Shown: piece by piece, positions 1,255 to 62,455 of the stretch
Position numbering within the stretch: position 1 is the stretch's first letter
How the letters are laid out: each line of letters begins with the position of its first letter
DNA from: Peribacillus muralis
GTDB taxonomy: Bacteria > Bacillota > Bacilli > Bacillales > DSM-1321
Reading direction: 5' to 3'
DNA length: 64,000 bases
Assembly: GCF_001645685.2 (NCBI RefSeq)
Contig: NZ_CP017080.1
Span: 1,106,001 to 1,170,000, forward strand
Made by a program: the position numbers and the translations under genes
Notes under the pieces: model-generated
What the model was told of the DNA's origin: nothing
Seen by the model: the letters and a program-made list of their open reading frames with translations, nothing else
Database searches by the model: none

Positions 1255-1818
1255 ATGAATTACGAGTTATTTCAAGCCGTTCATCGGCATGCAGGCCACC
1301 ATCTTTTCATGGATGGCTTTATGGTATTCATTACTGAGAAAGCATTGATCATATATGCCATAGCTTTACTTCTCATGTGGTTTTTGGGCAGTAGGATATA
1401 TAAAAAAACGGTACTTTTGGCAGCACTGACAGGATTTTTAGGTTTACTCCTTAATTTAATAATTAGTAAGATTTATTTTGAGCCGCGCCCGTTCGTTACC
1501 CATTTGGTTGATGTGTTGATCTATCATACCGCAGATGCTTCGTTCCCAAGTGATCACACGACAGGTGCTTTTTCACTCGCCTTTGCTGTTTTATTTCGTC
1601 ACCGTAAGATAGGTTTAGGTATGCTTTTATTAGCGGTTTTAACAGGGATTTCACGCATTTATGTCGGTCATCATTATCCAATTGATGTGATGGGCAGTAT
1701 AGTTGTGGGTATGTTGGTCAGTGTGTTTATTTATAAAACCAGTTCATTTCTTGAACAAATTCTACAATCAATCATTGACATTTATTATCGGGTTGCACAA
1801 TTTCCGCAAAAAAAATAA
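1255..1818 (+). CDS. bcrC: Undecaprenyl-diphosphatase BcrC (PAP2 family)
   Basis: This membrane phosphatase removes the terminal phosphate from undecaprenyl pyrophosphate on the outer face of the membrane, recycling the lipid carrier for peptidoglycan and teichoic acid synthesis; in Bacillus it also protects against bacitracin. The 187-residue protein shows the three PAP2 phosphatase motifs in order: KIYFEPRP (K-x6-RP), FPSDHTTG (PSGH-like) and SRIYVGHHYPIDV (SR-x5-H-x3-D), within about five or six hydrophobic segments. The start is preceded by AAAGGAGGG at a suitable distance. Length matches the Bacillus BcrC/YwoA family (about 190 residues). It stands alone, with a terminator downstream at 1965. 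Confidence 0.9.
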   Translation: MNYELFQAVHRHAGHHLFMDGFMVFITEKALIIYAIALLLMWFLGSRIYKKTVLLAALTGFLGLLLNLIISKIYFEPRPFVTHLVDVLIYHTADASFPSDHTTGAFSLAFAVLFRHRKIGLGMLLLAVLTGISRIYVGHHYPIDVMGSIVVGMLVSVFIYKTSSFLEQILQSIIDIYYRVAQFPQKK

Positions 1819-3670: not shown

Positions 3671-3699
3671 TTGACATTTTGTCAATCTTACTATATGTT
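3671..3699 (+). promoter_or_regulatory. Palindromic operator overlapping a putative promoter of the XRE-DUF1232 gene
   Basis: TTGACATTTTGTCAA (3671-3685) is a perfect inverted repeat, TTGACA-N3-TGTCAA. Its left half is a consensus -35, and TATGTT lies exactly 17 bases further on (3694-3699) as a plausible -10. The same 15-mer occurs twice before the LCP gene (5059 and 5140). A repressor bound here would block RNA polymerase; the XRE protein encoded just downstream is the obvious candidate, but that is inference. Confidence 0.75.
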
Positions 3700-3870
3700 A
3701 AATGTAATGATATGCAGGATCTCTTCTTTTCTATACTGTTCCTATGGCAAGACACATATGAAATCAGTCCTCTAGCACCATGTTGACATCATATAAGGAT
3801 AATTAGGAAACAGGTTTTATCACATATAGTTCTTCACCGGACTCTCAATGGAAAGGAAGGAAAAACGATA

Positions 3871-4515
3871 ATGTCTGAAGTCAATCATAAAAGTGAACTT
3901 GGTTTTAAATTGAAAAGCTTATTGAAAGAACGATCATTATCAATGCGAAAACTTAGTGAACTTACTGATATTGATACAGCAACAATTTCGCGGATAATTA
4001 ACGGTAAACGAAAAGCCAAGCCAGAGCATATACAGCAATTTTCTAAGGCTTTAGGAGTTCCCTTCTCAGAATTGCTTACTGCAGCGGGCTATGATATTGA
4101 AGAGAAAGAGGATAAGATGAATTCAGATATTCACACTTCTGTTGAGAGCATCCAAACTATCCTTGAATCCGCTAACTTATATGATAAAAATTTTTCTATA
4201 GCAAGTGTAGAAAAAAAACTGGCTATTTATGAAGAGCTCACACAATCAGAAGAAGGAAAAGACACGATACTTAATAGATTTGCGGACAAGGTTCAGAAGG
4301 TAGGAAGTATTGGTCCATTTATTAGTCATTTGAAGGAGATGTATGAAAGATTCCGACTTAAAAATGGCACTCCAGCTGAACTCACTTTAATTGGAAGTGC
4401 ACTTATATATTTCATATTACCAGTGGATGTTATTCCGGATTATACATTTCCGATTGGTTACTTAGATGACGCCATGGCTGTACAACTGGTGATGAATTTA
4501 ATCTCAATTAAATAA
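3871..4515 (+). CDS. XRE family transcriptional regulator with C-terminal DUF1232-like domain
   Basis: Residues about 10-65 form a lambda-repressor-type helix-turn-helix (MRKLSELTDIDTATISRIINGKR...LGVPFSELL). A helical linker follows, and the C-terminus carries GSALIYFILPVDVIPDYTFPIGYLDDAMAV, matching the DUF1232/YkvA-type hydrophobic hairpin, whose hallmark is the D-x-IPD core. The combination suggests a DNA-binding protein with a membrane-associating or sensory tail. The ATG follows GGAAGGAAAAACGATA. A palindrome overlapping its own putative promoter recurs upstream of the downstream LCP gene, so autoregulation and control of LCP are likely but unproven. A terminator follows at 4638. The ligand or signal is unknown. 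Confidence 0.85.
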   Translation: MSEVNHKSELGFKLKSLLKERSLSMRKLSELTDIDTATISRIINGKRKAKPEHIQQFSKALGVPFSELLTAAGYDIEEKEDKMNSDIHTSVESIQTILESANLYDKNFSIASVEKKLAIYEELTQSEEGKDTILNRFADKVQKVGSIGPFISHLKEMYERFRLKNGTPAELTLIGSALIYFILPVDVIPDYTFPIGYLDDAMAVQLVMNLISIK

Positions 4516-4637
4516 AGACTTTTCAATGGAAGGTTTTTGCAAGTTGGAGTTTCAAAATATCAAGGGAATTGAATCCACTCATAATCACCTTCATTTTTTT
4601 CTTTATAATAGTAAAGAGAAAAAATTGTTCATTATAA

Positions 4638-4678
4638 AAAAGGCAATAGGAACGGACGGCCCACTCCTATTGCCTTTT
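4638..4678 (+). terminator. Terminator after the XRE-DUF1232 gene
   Basis: AAAAGGCAATAGGA pairs perfectly with TCCTATTGCCTTTT (14 bp) around a 13-base loop, ending in a T-run. Confidence 0.85.
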
Positions 4679-4679
4679 G

Positions 4680-5058
4680 TCATGCTCTTTGGACGGCGTT
4701 AGTTACAGATGATTTATTAAGTACCGATGAAAAAACCTATATAAAGGTAAAAATCGTATATTATAGAAGAAACTCGTCAAATAAGCCATTATTCGAGAAA
4801 ATAAAAACTATAAGTTAACTAATCCATATATAATTCCTTATAGGAACTTCAACTTTAGGCGCATATTTTGATACATCTTGAACCGGATGATGAAGCCTTT
4901 GGTCCATTTATCTCTCGAATCCTGAAGGGGATTGTGGTTCGTTATTGAATAAACTAAAACTATGAGAACGAAAATAGTAGGTTATCTAAGAAAAATGAAG
5001 GCTTACATTCTTATTCTGATTCTGAATGATGTATGGAAAACCTTTTGTGGTTTTTTTG
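4680..5058. other. Gene-free region with a possible coding relic
   Basis: No complete gene is visible. From about 4859 to 4949 a short open frame reads like a protein C-terminus (IHLEPDDEAFGPFISRILK... then stop), with a GPFIS-x-LK-like string resembling one in the XRE protein. It has no start codon or ribosome binding site and may be the remnant of a lost gene. Confidence 0.3.
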
Positions 5059-5087
5059 TTGACATTTTGTCAAATAAAACTTATGTT
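5059..5087 (+). promoter_or_regulatory. Palindromic operator-promoter, distal copy upstream of the LCP gene
   Basis: TTGACATTTTGTCAA at 5059-5073 with TATGTT (5082-5087) exactly 17 bases after the TTGACA. Both palindrome and -10 are identical to the element before the XRE-DUF1232 gene. Confidence 0.75.
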
Positions 5088-5139
5088 GAATAAAGTGGAA
5101 TATAAAAAAATAAATTTAGGAGTCAGTCTGCATAATGTG

Positions 5140-5168
5140 TTGACATTTTGTCAATTAATCGATGATAA
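5140..5168 (+). promoter_or_regulatory. Palindromic operator-promoter, proximal copy upstream of the LCP gene
   Basis: TTGACATTTTGTCAA at 5140-5154. At 17-base spacing the -10 would be TGATAA (5163-5168), with the better-looking AT-rich GATAAAAT immediately beyond. It lies 66 bases downstream of the distal copy, giving a tandem arrangement. Confidence 0.7.
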
Positions 5169-5379
5169 AATGCGACACTGGGGATGGACGCCGCTTGTTT
5201 AACAGCCATGAGCCAATAAGGTGTAATTCTAAAGAAGTATCATGGCAACAGCGCCATAACGGTGGGAAGATACGGAAACTAAGTGGGAATAAGTCGAATA
5301 TGTGGGAATGACCAAGTCGGTTCTATCATAAGAATCCATCGATATACTGCATATATCATATTTGTGGAAGAGGGAATGA

Positions 5380-9162: not shown

Positions 9163-9208
9163 AAAATACCCCCCGTGCCTCAACAAAATGAGGCATGGGG
9201 GGTATTTT
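9163..9208. terminator. Bidirectional terminator before the first CorC-type gene
   Basis: AAAATACCCCCC-G-TGCCTCA pairs with TGAGGCA-T-GGGGGGTATTTT around a short loop; A- and T-tracts flank both sides. It serves the minus-strand CNNM/CorC gene, whose stop overlaps it, and the plus-strand genes. Confidence 0.85.
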
Positions 9209-10557
9209 CATGAAACGATTTCTGTTTGCGAGATCATCGGAAATTCTTTTACTTCACTTACAATTTTTGCTGGTTTATATATTTCAATATAGCGAATATG
9301 GTGATCTTCCATTTCTTTTATCCTAAAGTTATAAGGTCCAAAAGTTAGGACATCACCTTGCTTTGCTTCGTAATTCTCGGTAAGGATCCATCCGCCCATC
9401 GTATCGATGTCTTCATCATTAATATCCAGACCAAGTAAATCATTCATTTCACTGACCAATACCTTTGCATCGATTATATAATGATCTTCTTTTATTTTAC
9501 GCACATCAGGCACTTCATCCAGGTCAAATTCATCCCGAATATCGCCAACGATTTCTTCAAGGATATCTTCAACTGTCACCAGGCCTGATGTCCCGCCATA
9601 TTCATCCATGAGGATAGCCATATGAATTCGTTCTTTTTGCATTTTTAACAATAAATCGTGAATCGGTATGCTGTCAATGACGCGTATGATCGGACGAACA
9701 TATCTGTTGATCGTTGCGGCCGTGTGATTGCTTTTGTCAATCATTTCAGTGAAGAGTTCCTTGATATTGACCATACCGATGACATGATCTTTATCGCCAT
9801 CAATGACAGGATAACGGGTAAAGTTGTCTTCCGCCATGACGGTGAAAAACTGTTCAATCGTATCATCCTTGGATATCGTAGCGATTTCAGTACGCGGAAC
9901 CATGATTTCTTTTGCTATCCTATCATCGAATTCAAAGATTTTATTCACGTATTTAAACTCAGATTGGTTAATTTCGCCACTTTTATAGCTTTCGGAAACG
10001 ATGATACGCAGCTCTTCTTCTGTATGAGCCAAATCATGTTCAGAAACTGCTTTTAATCCTAGCATTTTTGTCAGCGCCCTTGCGGAGCCATTCAGTACCC
10101 AGATGAACGGATACATGATTTTGTTAAACCATATTAAAGGTTTGGAAACCAATAACGTAACCTGCTCCGCTTTTTGAATCGCCAATGTTTTCGGTGCCAG
10201 TTCCCCAACGACGACATGTATGAACGTTATGGAAGAAAAGGCAATCGCAACTGAGAGTATATGTGAAGCAGAATGAAGATTTAATTGAATTAAAAGTGGT
10301 CGCAAAATGTTTTCAACCGTCGGTTCTCCAAGGAACCCCAGCCCTAAGGCAGTGACGGTAATGCCGAGCTGGCAAGTCGAAAGGTATTCATCAAGATTGG
10401 ATATGACCTTCCTTGCTGAAAGAGCATTTGGATTTCCTTCTTCAATTAATTGATCGACCCTCGTGCTTCTCACTTTAACGATCGCAAACTCCGTAGCGAC
10501 AAAAAATGCTGTTAAAGCAATTAAAATGGCAATGATAACCAAGTTTAATATGTCCAA
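9208..10557 (-). CDS. CNNM/CorC family (HlyC/CorC) transporter, paralogue 1
   Basis: The 449-residue protein has an N-terminal DUF21/CNNM membrane domain (residues about 1-190, with FFVATEFAIVKVRSTRVDQL and GELAPKTLAIQKAE), a CBS pair (IMVPRTEIATISKDDTIEQF... and RPIIRVIDSIPIHDLLLKMQ), the DEYGGTSGLVTVEDILEEIVGDI signature, and a C-terminal CorC_HlyC domain (DINDEDIDTMGGWI). Bacillus relatives such as MpfA/YhdP promote Mg2+ efflux. The start is TTG preceded by AAGGGAG. A close paralogue lies at 13655-14986 in the same orientation, separated by YitT, lipoprotein and DedA genes. The leader just upstream folds over its ribosome binding site. Confidence 0.9.
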   Translation of the reverse strand: MDILNLVIIAILIALTAFFVATEFAIVKVRSTRVDQLIEEGNPNALSARKVISNLDEYLSTCQLGITVTALGLGFLGEPTVENILRPLLIQLNLHSASHILSVAIAFSSITFIHVVVGELAPKTLAIQKAEQVTLLVSKPLIWFNKIMYPFIWVLNGSARALTKMLGLKAVSEHDLAHTEEELRIIVSESYKSGEINQSEFKYVNKIFEFDDRIAKEIMVPRTEIATISKDDTIEQFFTVMAEDNFTRYPVIDGDKDHVIGMVNIKELFTEMIDKSNHTAATINRYVRPIIRVIDSIPIHDLLLKMQKERIHMAILMDEYGGTSGLVTVEDILEEIVGDIRDEFDLDEVPDVRKIKEDHYIIDAKVLVSEMNDLLGLDINDEDIDTMGGWILTENYEAKQGDVLTFGPYNFRIKEMEDHHIRYIEIYKPAKIVSEVKEFPMISQTEIVS

Positions 10558-52365: not shown

Positions 52366-52482
52366 TCTTCTTATCTTCCAAGTTTAAAAACTTGTGGAAT
52401 TAGCACCTTTTCATTGGTTTGAAACAAATGAAGGTTGCTGAGGTGTCATCGGGCCGTTCCCTCTACCTCTCTCGATAAGAGT
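52366..52482 (-). promoter_or_regulatory. SAM (S-box) riboswitch of metI-metC
   Basis: The minus strand contains CTTATCGAGAGAGGTAGAGG, then GATGACACCTCAGCAACC, AAGGTGCTAATTCC and AAGATAAG closing the P1 helix with CTTATC. These are the conserved elements of the SAM-I aptamer. High S-adenosylmethionine favours the terminator at 52314. Confidence 0.95.
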
Positions 52483-60767: not shown

Positions 60768-60874
60768 GTCTTATCTTTCAGAATGCAATCATCCTGCAGG
60801 AAGTGGCACCGTTCCCGATTGGGGCGGTTGCCGGACATCACAGGGCCTGATCCCTCCGTCACTCTTGATAAGTA
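60768..60874 (-). promoter_or_regulatory. SAM (S-box) riboswitch of metNPQ
   Basis: On the minus strand: CTTATCAAGAGTGACGGAGG, then GGCCCTGTGATGTCCGGCAA, CGGTGCCACTTCC and AAAGATAAG which closes P1 with CTTATC. Matches the SAM-I aptamer core; it controls methionine uptake. Confidence 0.92.
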
Positions 60875-61900: not shown

Positions 61901-62154
61901 ACAAATAGCCGGACAAACTGTTCAGGATGTTTTTCCGGATTAAACGTGAAATATCTTAAAGCATAAATGCTGGTTCTAGTTTTTTAACTACTTGCTGCGG
62001 TTTCTTTTTTGTAACCTCAATGGTGTGAACATCCTAAGTGGAATGGCTGGAACCAAAGAACTGAAAACGAGATGATCGATCATCTCCGCGGGCCCTGATT
62101 GTAATCCAGGAAATAATTTGATACATTTATATGGAAAACTAAATTAGTCTAGAA
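61901..62154. other. Gap before the cobalamin riboswitch
   Basis: No gene or obvious terminator of the hydrolase gene was recognised here. Confidence 0.4.
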
Positions 62155-62330
62155 ATGGGTGCGGATAAGAAATCTTCTATTTATTCGCTTAATAGGGAAG
62201 CCGGTTAAAATCCGGCGCTGTCCCGCAACTGTAAATGTGAGCGATTCGATTGATGCCACTGTTTTCTGCAATAGGAAATGGGAAGGTTCGAAAAGCGATG
62301 ATCATGAGCCAGGATACCTGCCTGTTTTTA
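62155..62330 (+). promoter_or_regulatory. Cobalamin riboswitch
   Basis: Conserved elements in order: AATAGGGAAGCCGGT, AATCCGGCGCTGTCCCGC, AACTGTAAATGTGAGC, GCCACTG, AATGGGAAGG, then CATGAGCCAGGATACCTGCC (the B12 box and closing elements). This is the AdoCbl-class riboswitch. It precedes a terminator at 62456 and an 81-residue protein gene rather than a known B12 gene. Confidence 0.92.
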
Positions 62331-62455
62331 GCACATCATCAAATGCCTACGAGGATAGGAGATGTTACGTGCGAAAATTGGCAAAAGCATGCTTTTCATT
62401 TTAAAAAATGGAAAAAACATGTTTGTTTTTTGTTATGTTTCGTTTCGTTGCGCTC

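Follow-up and report, generated by a model that had tools for sequence, protein, structure and literature searches.

A palindromic operator over the −35 element recurs with XRE-DUF1232 regulator genes beside cell wall and metal transporter genes in Bacillales

The 64,000-nucleotide stretch of Peribacillus muralis DNA analysed here (the window) includes three copies of a 15-bp palindrome, one before the gene for an XRE-type protein with a DUF1232 domain and two before the gene for an LCP (LytR-CpsA-Psr) protein. This arrangement raises the question of whether the XRE-DUF1232 protein acts on the palindrome and controls both its own gene and the LCP gene, as an earlier note on this DNA had suggested. 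The features of the region are collected in Table 1.

Table 1. Features of the XRE-LCP module and its surroundings, with positions in the window.
Feature	Position	Strand	Details
PAP2-family phosphatase gene	1255..1818	+	Possibly part of the wider neighbourhood
RodA-type SEDS glycosyltransferase gene, 386 aa	2365..3525	+	PF01098, 325.7 bits; TIGR02210 (rodA), 358.7, cut-off 336.7
Operator 1, TTGACATTTTGTCAA	3671..3685	+	Left half serves as −35 in the likely XRE promoter
−10, TATGTT	3694..3699	+	17 bp after TTGACA of operator 1 (promoter scan)
XRE-DUF1232 regulator gene, 214 aa	3871..4515	+	HTH_3 at residues 14–68, recognition helix 36–43 with Arg47 shortly behind it, DUF1232 172–203
14-bp inverted repeat, then T-rich end	4638..4678	+	Arms 4638–4651/4665–4678; probable terminator of the XRE transcript; read directly
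Operator 2, TTGACATTTTGTCAA	5059..5073	+	−35 of the likely main LCP promoter
−10, TATGTT	5082..5087	+	17 bp after TTGACA of operator 2 (promoter scan)
Operator 3, TTGACATTTTGTCAA	5140..5154	+	Weak −10 GATAAA at 18 bp, 5164–5169, by eye
LCP glycopolymer transferase gene (putative), 317 aa	5380..6333	+	PF03816, 147.7 bits; TIGR00350, 134.8, cut-off 62.3

The domains named in the earlier note were all found by profile search, namely HTH_3 (PF01381, 47 bits; cut-off 23) and DUF1232 (YkvA-like; PF06803, 43.9 bits; cut-off 23) in the XRE protein, and LytR_cpsA_psr (cut-off 24.6) in the LCP protein. The structure model of the XRE protein, compared over residues 3–78 in most cases, has a Cro/CI-type helix-turn-helix fold that resembles SinR, P22 c2 and TP901-1 CI. 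The LCP gene product is a putative glycopolymer transferase by family; its best NCBIfam equivalog is TagU, with a score below the cut-off (218.8 of 441), and tagT and tagU are LCP genes.

A RodA-type SEDS gene, which was not among the coordinates of the earlier note and scores above the cut-off of the rodA equivalog model, ends 145 bp before operator 1. No operator was found upstream of it in the window, though the gene is linked to the module. The genome includes five SEDS genes (PF01098) and five LCP genes (PF03816). The other four SEDS genes are 32–43% identical to the RodA-type gene, and the other LCP copies are 26–43% identical to the LCP of the window; thus, both genes look like accessory copies. 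In another locus, L035, a homologue of the PAP2 gene (51% identity) is separated from the RodA gene by about 3 kb. Downstream, a CNNM/CorC-family gene, which we take by family to encode a possible Mg2+ exporter, is found 2.9 kb beyond the LCP gene (9208–10557, reverse strand), and the Rfam scan revealed no riboswitch there. The riboswitches that Rfam revealed in the window are two SAM and one cobalamin, at 52368–52481 (−), 60768–60874 (−) and 62140–62339 (+).

The three palindromes are exact copies and lie where the earlier note had placed them. Its reading of their left half as a −35 element, with an identical −10 at 17 bp in two cases and a weaker one in the third, also held. The promoter scan called TTGACA-17-TATGTT at operators 1 and 2 with 10 of 12 matches each, i.e. 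promoters of the sigma-A type, and no promoter was called at operator 3. Operator 1 also scored 10/12 on the reverse strand, with an 18-bp spacer and CATAGT. Over the region, promoter-like sites numbered 13, as compared with 13.7 in shuffled sequences, and hence showed no excess; what counts as evidence is therefore the palindrome itself and the fact that it is conserved, rather than the promoter calls. Downstream of operator 1 and ahead of the XRE start, a lone half-site, TGTTGACA, is present at 3781–3788; no right half accompanies it. The inverted repeat that follows the XRE gene is perfect and is missing from the scan listing, its loop being beyond the limit of the scan. Together with its T-rich end, it indicates that the XRE and LCP genes are probably transcribed separately.

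A palindrome abundant at unrelated promoters would have spoken against a dedicated operator. The genome (5,005,145 bases in 2 contigs) includes exactly three matches to TTGACANNNTGTCAA (TTGACA-N3-TGTCAA), all of them in the module, and the control motif read backwards gave none. One copy precedes the XRE gene, a requirement for autoregulation, and the others precede a wall gene; this supports a self-regulating XRE-LCP module as a candidate.

The XRE-DUF1232 family comprises 611 proteins at E values up to 1e-15. As to a possible origin from a mobile element or phage, one match was found in plasmid records (Niallia, 44%), and none in phage records or in E. coli. For comparison, 127 loci, some of which overlap, were collected: the window, 46 loci from the genomes of relatives and 80 others, being the best 80 of 267 confirmed places. 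The gene set consisted of 133 of the 138 genes scoring >100, after removal of identical ones and any <170 aa. Loci L116 and L118 contain no gene above the family threshold, and the full-length matches G189 and G271 (2/46) were left out. Near-identical species were retained in the counts, except where the set was thinned to <70% identity.

The palindrome (class I operator) was found with at most one mismatch within 400 bp upstream of 77 of the 133 distinct genes, exact in 54 and with one mismatch in 23. For one hundred permuted palindromes, the count upstream of the same genes was 0.17 on average and at most 5. Other unlabelled ORFs in these loci carried the site in 19 of 721 cases, which may include ORFs that border the same intergenic region as XRE. 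After thinning, the site was retained by 41 of 73 genes, as compared with a permuted maximum of 2. As the sites were selected at ≤1 mismatch, conservation of the inner bases arises by construction; independent evidence comes only from the flanks, the −10 and the controls. The unselected flanks extend the operator to about 19 bp, tGTTGACA-WWW-TGTCAACa, with G before the palindrome in 59/73 sites and C after it in 56/73. A −10 with at least four of six bases at a 17-bp spacer was found in the direction of the gene at 51 of 73 sites, and in reverse at 13 of 73, the remaining 4 of the 77 sites lacking enough flank for this count. Thus, use of the operator as a −35, which the earlier note had read from three sites, appears to be a conserved design with a suitably spaced −10 in many relatives, though not at every locus. 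The regulator, the operator and LCP genes recur together across Bacillales; the earlier note had proposed to look for such pairs in other Bacillaceae.

Residue 47 of the regulator, located in the loop just after the recognition helix in the structure model, divides the family into two clades. Of the 77 genes with a class I operator, 75 encode Arg at this position; of the remaining 56, 40 encode Gln. A class I site is present within 3 kb of 84/90 Arg47 genes, in 3 of these only as a one-mismatch site outside the 400 bp upstream; none is present within 3 kb in 6/90 Arg47 loci, and none within 400 bp upstream of XRE in 15/90. Two sites within 600 bp upstream were found for 10/90 Arg47 genes. Among 42 Gln47 genes, 32 have no class I site, two have a one-mismatch site upstream, and eight have an exact site elsewhere in the locus that is in every case shared with a second regulator. 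Independent coevolution of residue 47 and the operator was considered and rejected. The tree needs a single change between Arg and Gln, and hence the match is not independent evidence; residue 47 marks the clades and is a candidate contact.

An outer frame of the operator, TGTTG-N9-CAACA, is common to both clades. It is exact in 22/90 Arg47 and 9/43 Gln47-type genes, and present with ≤1 mismatch in 62/90 and 20/43, respectively. Nine permuted frames gave no exact match and, in the Gln47-type clade, at most 3 matches with ≤1 mismatch. The inner bases of the Gln47-type sites differ, examples being TGTTGAGA..TCAACA at YtaF-type loci and TGTTGCAA..TTGCAAC at those of the NRAMP type, and in about half of the clade no site of the outer-frame type was found. 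Genes for NRAMP-family transporters adjoin XRE-DUF1232 in Gln47-type loci such as L104, L106 and L108, and a TGTTGCAAAWTTTGCAAC-like site is present in some of these loci. Within the genus (genomes G000–G035), a full-length family member is present in only 2 of 36 genomes, and the nearest neighbour in the tree is Viridibacillus; the spread of the family is patchy, perhaps owing to horizontal transfer.

The neighbours of the regulator were labelled by similarity to one or two queries per family, with which Pfam and NCBIfam scans of examples agree; the labels are family names, and the functions are putative. Within 3 kb of the 90 Arg47 genes, LCP was found in 65 cases, Mntp/YtaF in 35, SEDS in 31, MgtE in 16, PAP2 in 15 and TatC in 10 (L127, L129, L136, L138 and others), the last hinting at protein export in the same neighbourhood. 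Wall genes (LCP or RodA/FtsW-type SEDS) are present in 79 of these loci, metal transporters in 44, and 38 loci have both. In the Gln47-type clade, a metal transporter lies next to the regulator in 40 of 43 cases (Mntp 27, NRAMP 13) and wall genes do so in nine, all in loci with two regulators. As a control, 295 ORFs more than 3.5 kb away included one LCP and no SEDS or metal transporter genes. The LCP gene that the earlier note had named as the partner does recur with the regulator, but the partner set is wider and includes RodA/FtsW-type SEDS, PAP2 and Mn/Mg transporter genes. The position of related regulators next to Mg/Mn transporter genes suggests a response to metal or to envelope stress.

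Riboswitches were found in some of the related loci. M-boxes are present in 14 of the 28 XRE loci of relatives that were scanned, which had been picked partly for MgtE or RodA, and in none of the other 14. L034 and L126 have the operator, then an M-box Mg2+ riboswitch and then mgtE; L157 and L161 have an operator with one mismatch, then an M-box and rodA-mgtE. An M-box directly precedes a RodA-type SEDS gene, an unexpected target for this riboswitch, in L034, L035, L151, L157 and L161. In the window, including the RodA and LCP leaders, Rfam gave no match to the M-box (RF00380), and no Mntp, MgtE, NRAMP or TerC gene was found near the module. Thus, the link to metal comes from the relatives. 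An M-box remnant in the RodA leader of the window, at which a three-sequence alignment with L034 and L035 had hinted, was rejected, since local alignment of the leader gave scores of 26 against L035 (shuffle maximum 29) and 22 against L034 (shuffle maximum 31).

The DUF1232 part is where a signal might be perceived. The protein has a hydrophobic peak at residues 171–189 (Kyte-Doolittle value of 1.91 over 19 residues), and membrane sensing, which the earlier note had raised, is plausible. Asp186, Asp190, Asp199 and Asp200 are invariant among 57 aligned members; the structure model is poor in this loop (pLDDT <50 at 186–189 and 191–195). We tentatively propose that XRE-DUF1232 proteins could form a new class of membrane-embedded Mg2+/Mn2+-responsive repressors, in which an acidic DUF1232 hairpin with these four residues would bind the ion at the membrane face and couple metal supply to LCP/SEDS genes and to metal transporters (Mntp, NRAMP, MgtE and perhaps TerC), with one clade inclined towards each task and a common operator frame.

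The operator, its −35/−10 geometry, its rarity in the genome, its conservation with the family and the partner genes were computed directly, and we infer that XRE-DUF1232 binds the operator, dimerises, represses rather than activates, and senses the membrane or a metal. In the mechanism proposed, the protein would be a one-component dimeric repressor of the Cro/CI type. Since its operator of about 19 bp covers the −35 of a sigma-A promoter, repressor and RNA polymerase would compete for the same bases. It would repress its own gene through operator 1 and the LCP gene through operators 2 and 3, and the presence of two operators may give tighter control of the latter. The C-terminal DUF1232 hairpin would tether the protein to the membrane or insert into it, and a disturbed envelope or a disturbed supply of divalent metal (Mg2+/Mn2+) would cause release of the DNA. 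Derepression would yield more of the wall-polymer transferase here, and in relatives also of SEDS polymerases and metal transporters. On the evidence presented, this mechanism is likely.

Whether control extends beyond the XRE loci was judged from a survey of TTGACA-WWW-TGTCAA in 62 genomes that carry the family, with the genome of L130 left out. The survey gave 52 sites, of which 46 lie in XRE loci already collected (most matched by sequence, the rest by coordinates). Two of the other six precede further XRE-RodA pairs in Oceanobacillus, one precedes a frameshifted XRE copy followed by RodA, one is inside an ORF, and two lie just upstream of TerC (YkoY-family) genes in two Viridibacillus, which represent one inheritance. 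In L244 (about 3846–4466, reverse strand), a frameshifted XRE-DUF1232 copy, either a young pseudogene or an assembly error, is flanked by an exact operator and a full-length RodA gene. The 62 carrier genomes have 3 sites remote from XRE genes, as compared with 6 in 95 non-carriers; such sites are thus no commoner in carriers, which leaves control in trans weakly supported. The idea of wide control in trans is weakened accordingly, and what remains of it is a site in G061, on another contig, that precedes two SEDS genes, and the TerC pair. In L242 the palindrome (4339–4353) overlaps the 5' end of an Mn2+ riboswitch (4181–4349, reverse strand) and is not a −35; hence TerC is doubtful as a target, and the TerC sites could be there by chance.

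A different, unlinked regulator might own the palindrome, XRE-DUF1232 and LCP being merely two of its targets, and the A/T-centred palindrome does occur in genomes without a full-length family member (non-carriers). Among 101 relatives, however, it is present in 5 of 6 carriers as compared with 5 of 95 non-carriers (p = 1.8e-5). The non-carriers have six sites, two inside ORFs and four in front of genes, and the adjoining genes gave no match to the SEDS, LCP, PAP2, MgtE, YtaF or XRE queries. Moreover, the outer frame of the operator tracks the family into the Gln47 clade despite different neighbours, and an unlinked regulator is very unlikely. That the palindromes are functionless products of chance or local duplication would fit the identical centres of the three copies, but is contradicted by the permutation statistics for the full and thinned sets, by the survey of carrier genomes and by recurrence of the site in diverged loci, where the more distant flanks include no strongly conserved base; this explanation has next to no probability.

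The direction and the signal of the control are separate matters. Some XRE proteins activate, and XRE-DUF1232 bound at the −35 might bring RNA polymerase to the promoters of LCP and SEDS genes and could act differently at the doubled LCP sites; tandem sites, as before LCP here and upstream of some other Arg47 genes, would allow such mixed control. Yet the operator covers the −35, which is the occlusion geometry of Cro/CI-type repressors, and good hexamers are present at both −35 and −10 in many of the promoters, so that activation is considered unlikely. The other possibility concerns the signal: the repressor may be as proposed and respond to lipid-carrier (undecaprenyl phosphate) or wall-synthesis stress instead of metal, as a one-component counterpart of SigM. 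B. subtilis SigM controls rodA, bcrC, tagT and tagU, according to an excerpt of PMC11081497, and RodA, LCP and PAP2 genes recur here. Against this stand the Gln47-type relatives in single-regulator loci, which adjoin metal transporters in 27/30 cases and wall genes in 0/30, and the four loci in which mgtE and rodA are linked both to the operator and to M-box Mg2+ riboswitches. A lipid-carrier or wall signal is a serious possibility, if short of an even chance.

The repressor with an envelope- or metal-dependent release can be compared with known systems. SinR, ImmR, P22 c2 and TP901-1 CI are repressors with operators over promoters. XRE-DUF1232 shares with these one-component Cro/CI (XRE) proteins the HTH_3 domain, the fold and a palindrome at its own promoter, and differs in the C-terminal DUF1232 with its hydrophobic helix and in the wall and metal partners. 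By itself, an operator over a −35 is nothing unusual for a repressor, and both the repressor type and the operator-over-promoter arrangement are of known kinds. The envelope-stress regulon of B. subtilis SigM (YhdLK) overlaps in the kinds of target (rodA, tagT/tagU and bcrC, in the excerpt of PMC11081497). SigM is an ECF sigma factor with inhibitors, in contrast to a one-component regulator acting at sigma-A-type promoters with the operator in the −35. As to metals, the TerC-family proteins MeeF and MeeY support Mn-dependent LtaS, as an excerpt of PMC10550928 states. The TerC and Mn/Mg riboswitch control of exoenzymes resembles the present case in the palindrome before TerC in two Viridibacillus, one of them on an Mn2+ riboswitch, and in the M-boxes before mgtE and rodA in relatives of the module; it differs in that a DUF1232 protein regulator is here layered on top and the module of the window has no metal gene of this kind next to it.

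The earlier note knew of no description of this combination, and a literature search, in a collection without most subscription papers, likewise found none. The matches to DUF1232, in the portions of text covered, included only plant RING-finger genes and none with a helix-turn-helix, and queries for the operator, for the LCP/Xre/RodA combination and for the M-box with RodA gave no match in that collection. Thus, in the literature searched, there appears to be no description of the proposed DUF1232 sensor, of this operator or of a partner set that joins wall and metal genes. We know of no dedicated transcription factor that connects SEDS and LCP genes with Mg2+/Mn2+ homeostasis. If the proposal is true, a role could be assigned to DUF1232, so far a domain of unknown function, and a large unnamed regulator family would acquire an operator and a regulon together with a testable signal. 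The DUF1232 class would then link the supply of divalent metals directly to wall-polymer enzymes and metal transporters, and the accessory SEDS polymerases and LCP transferases of many Bacillales would be tied to Mg2+/Mn2+ homeostasis.
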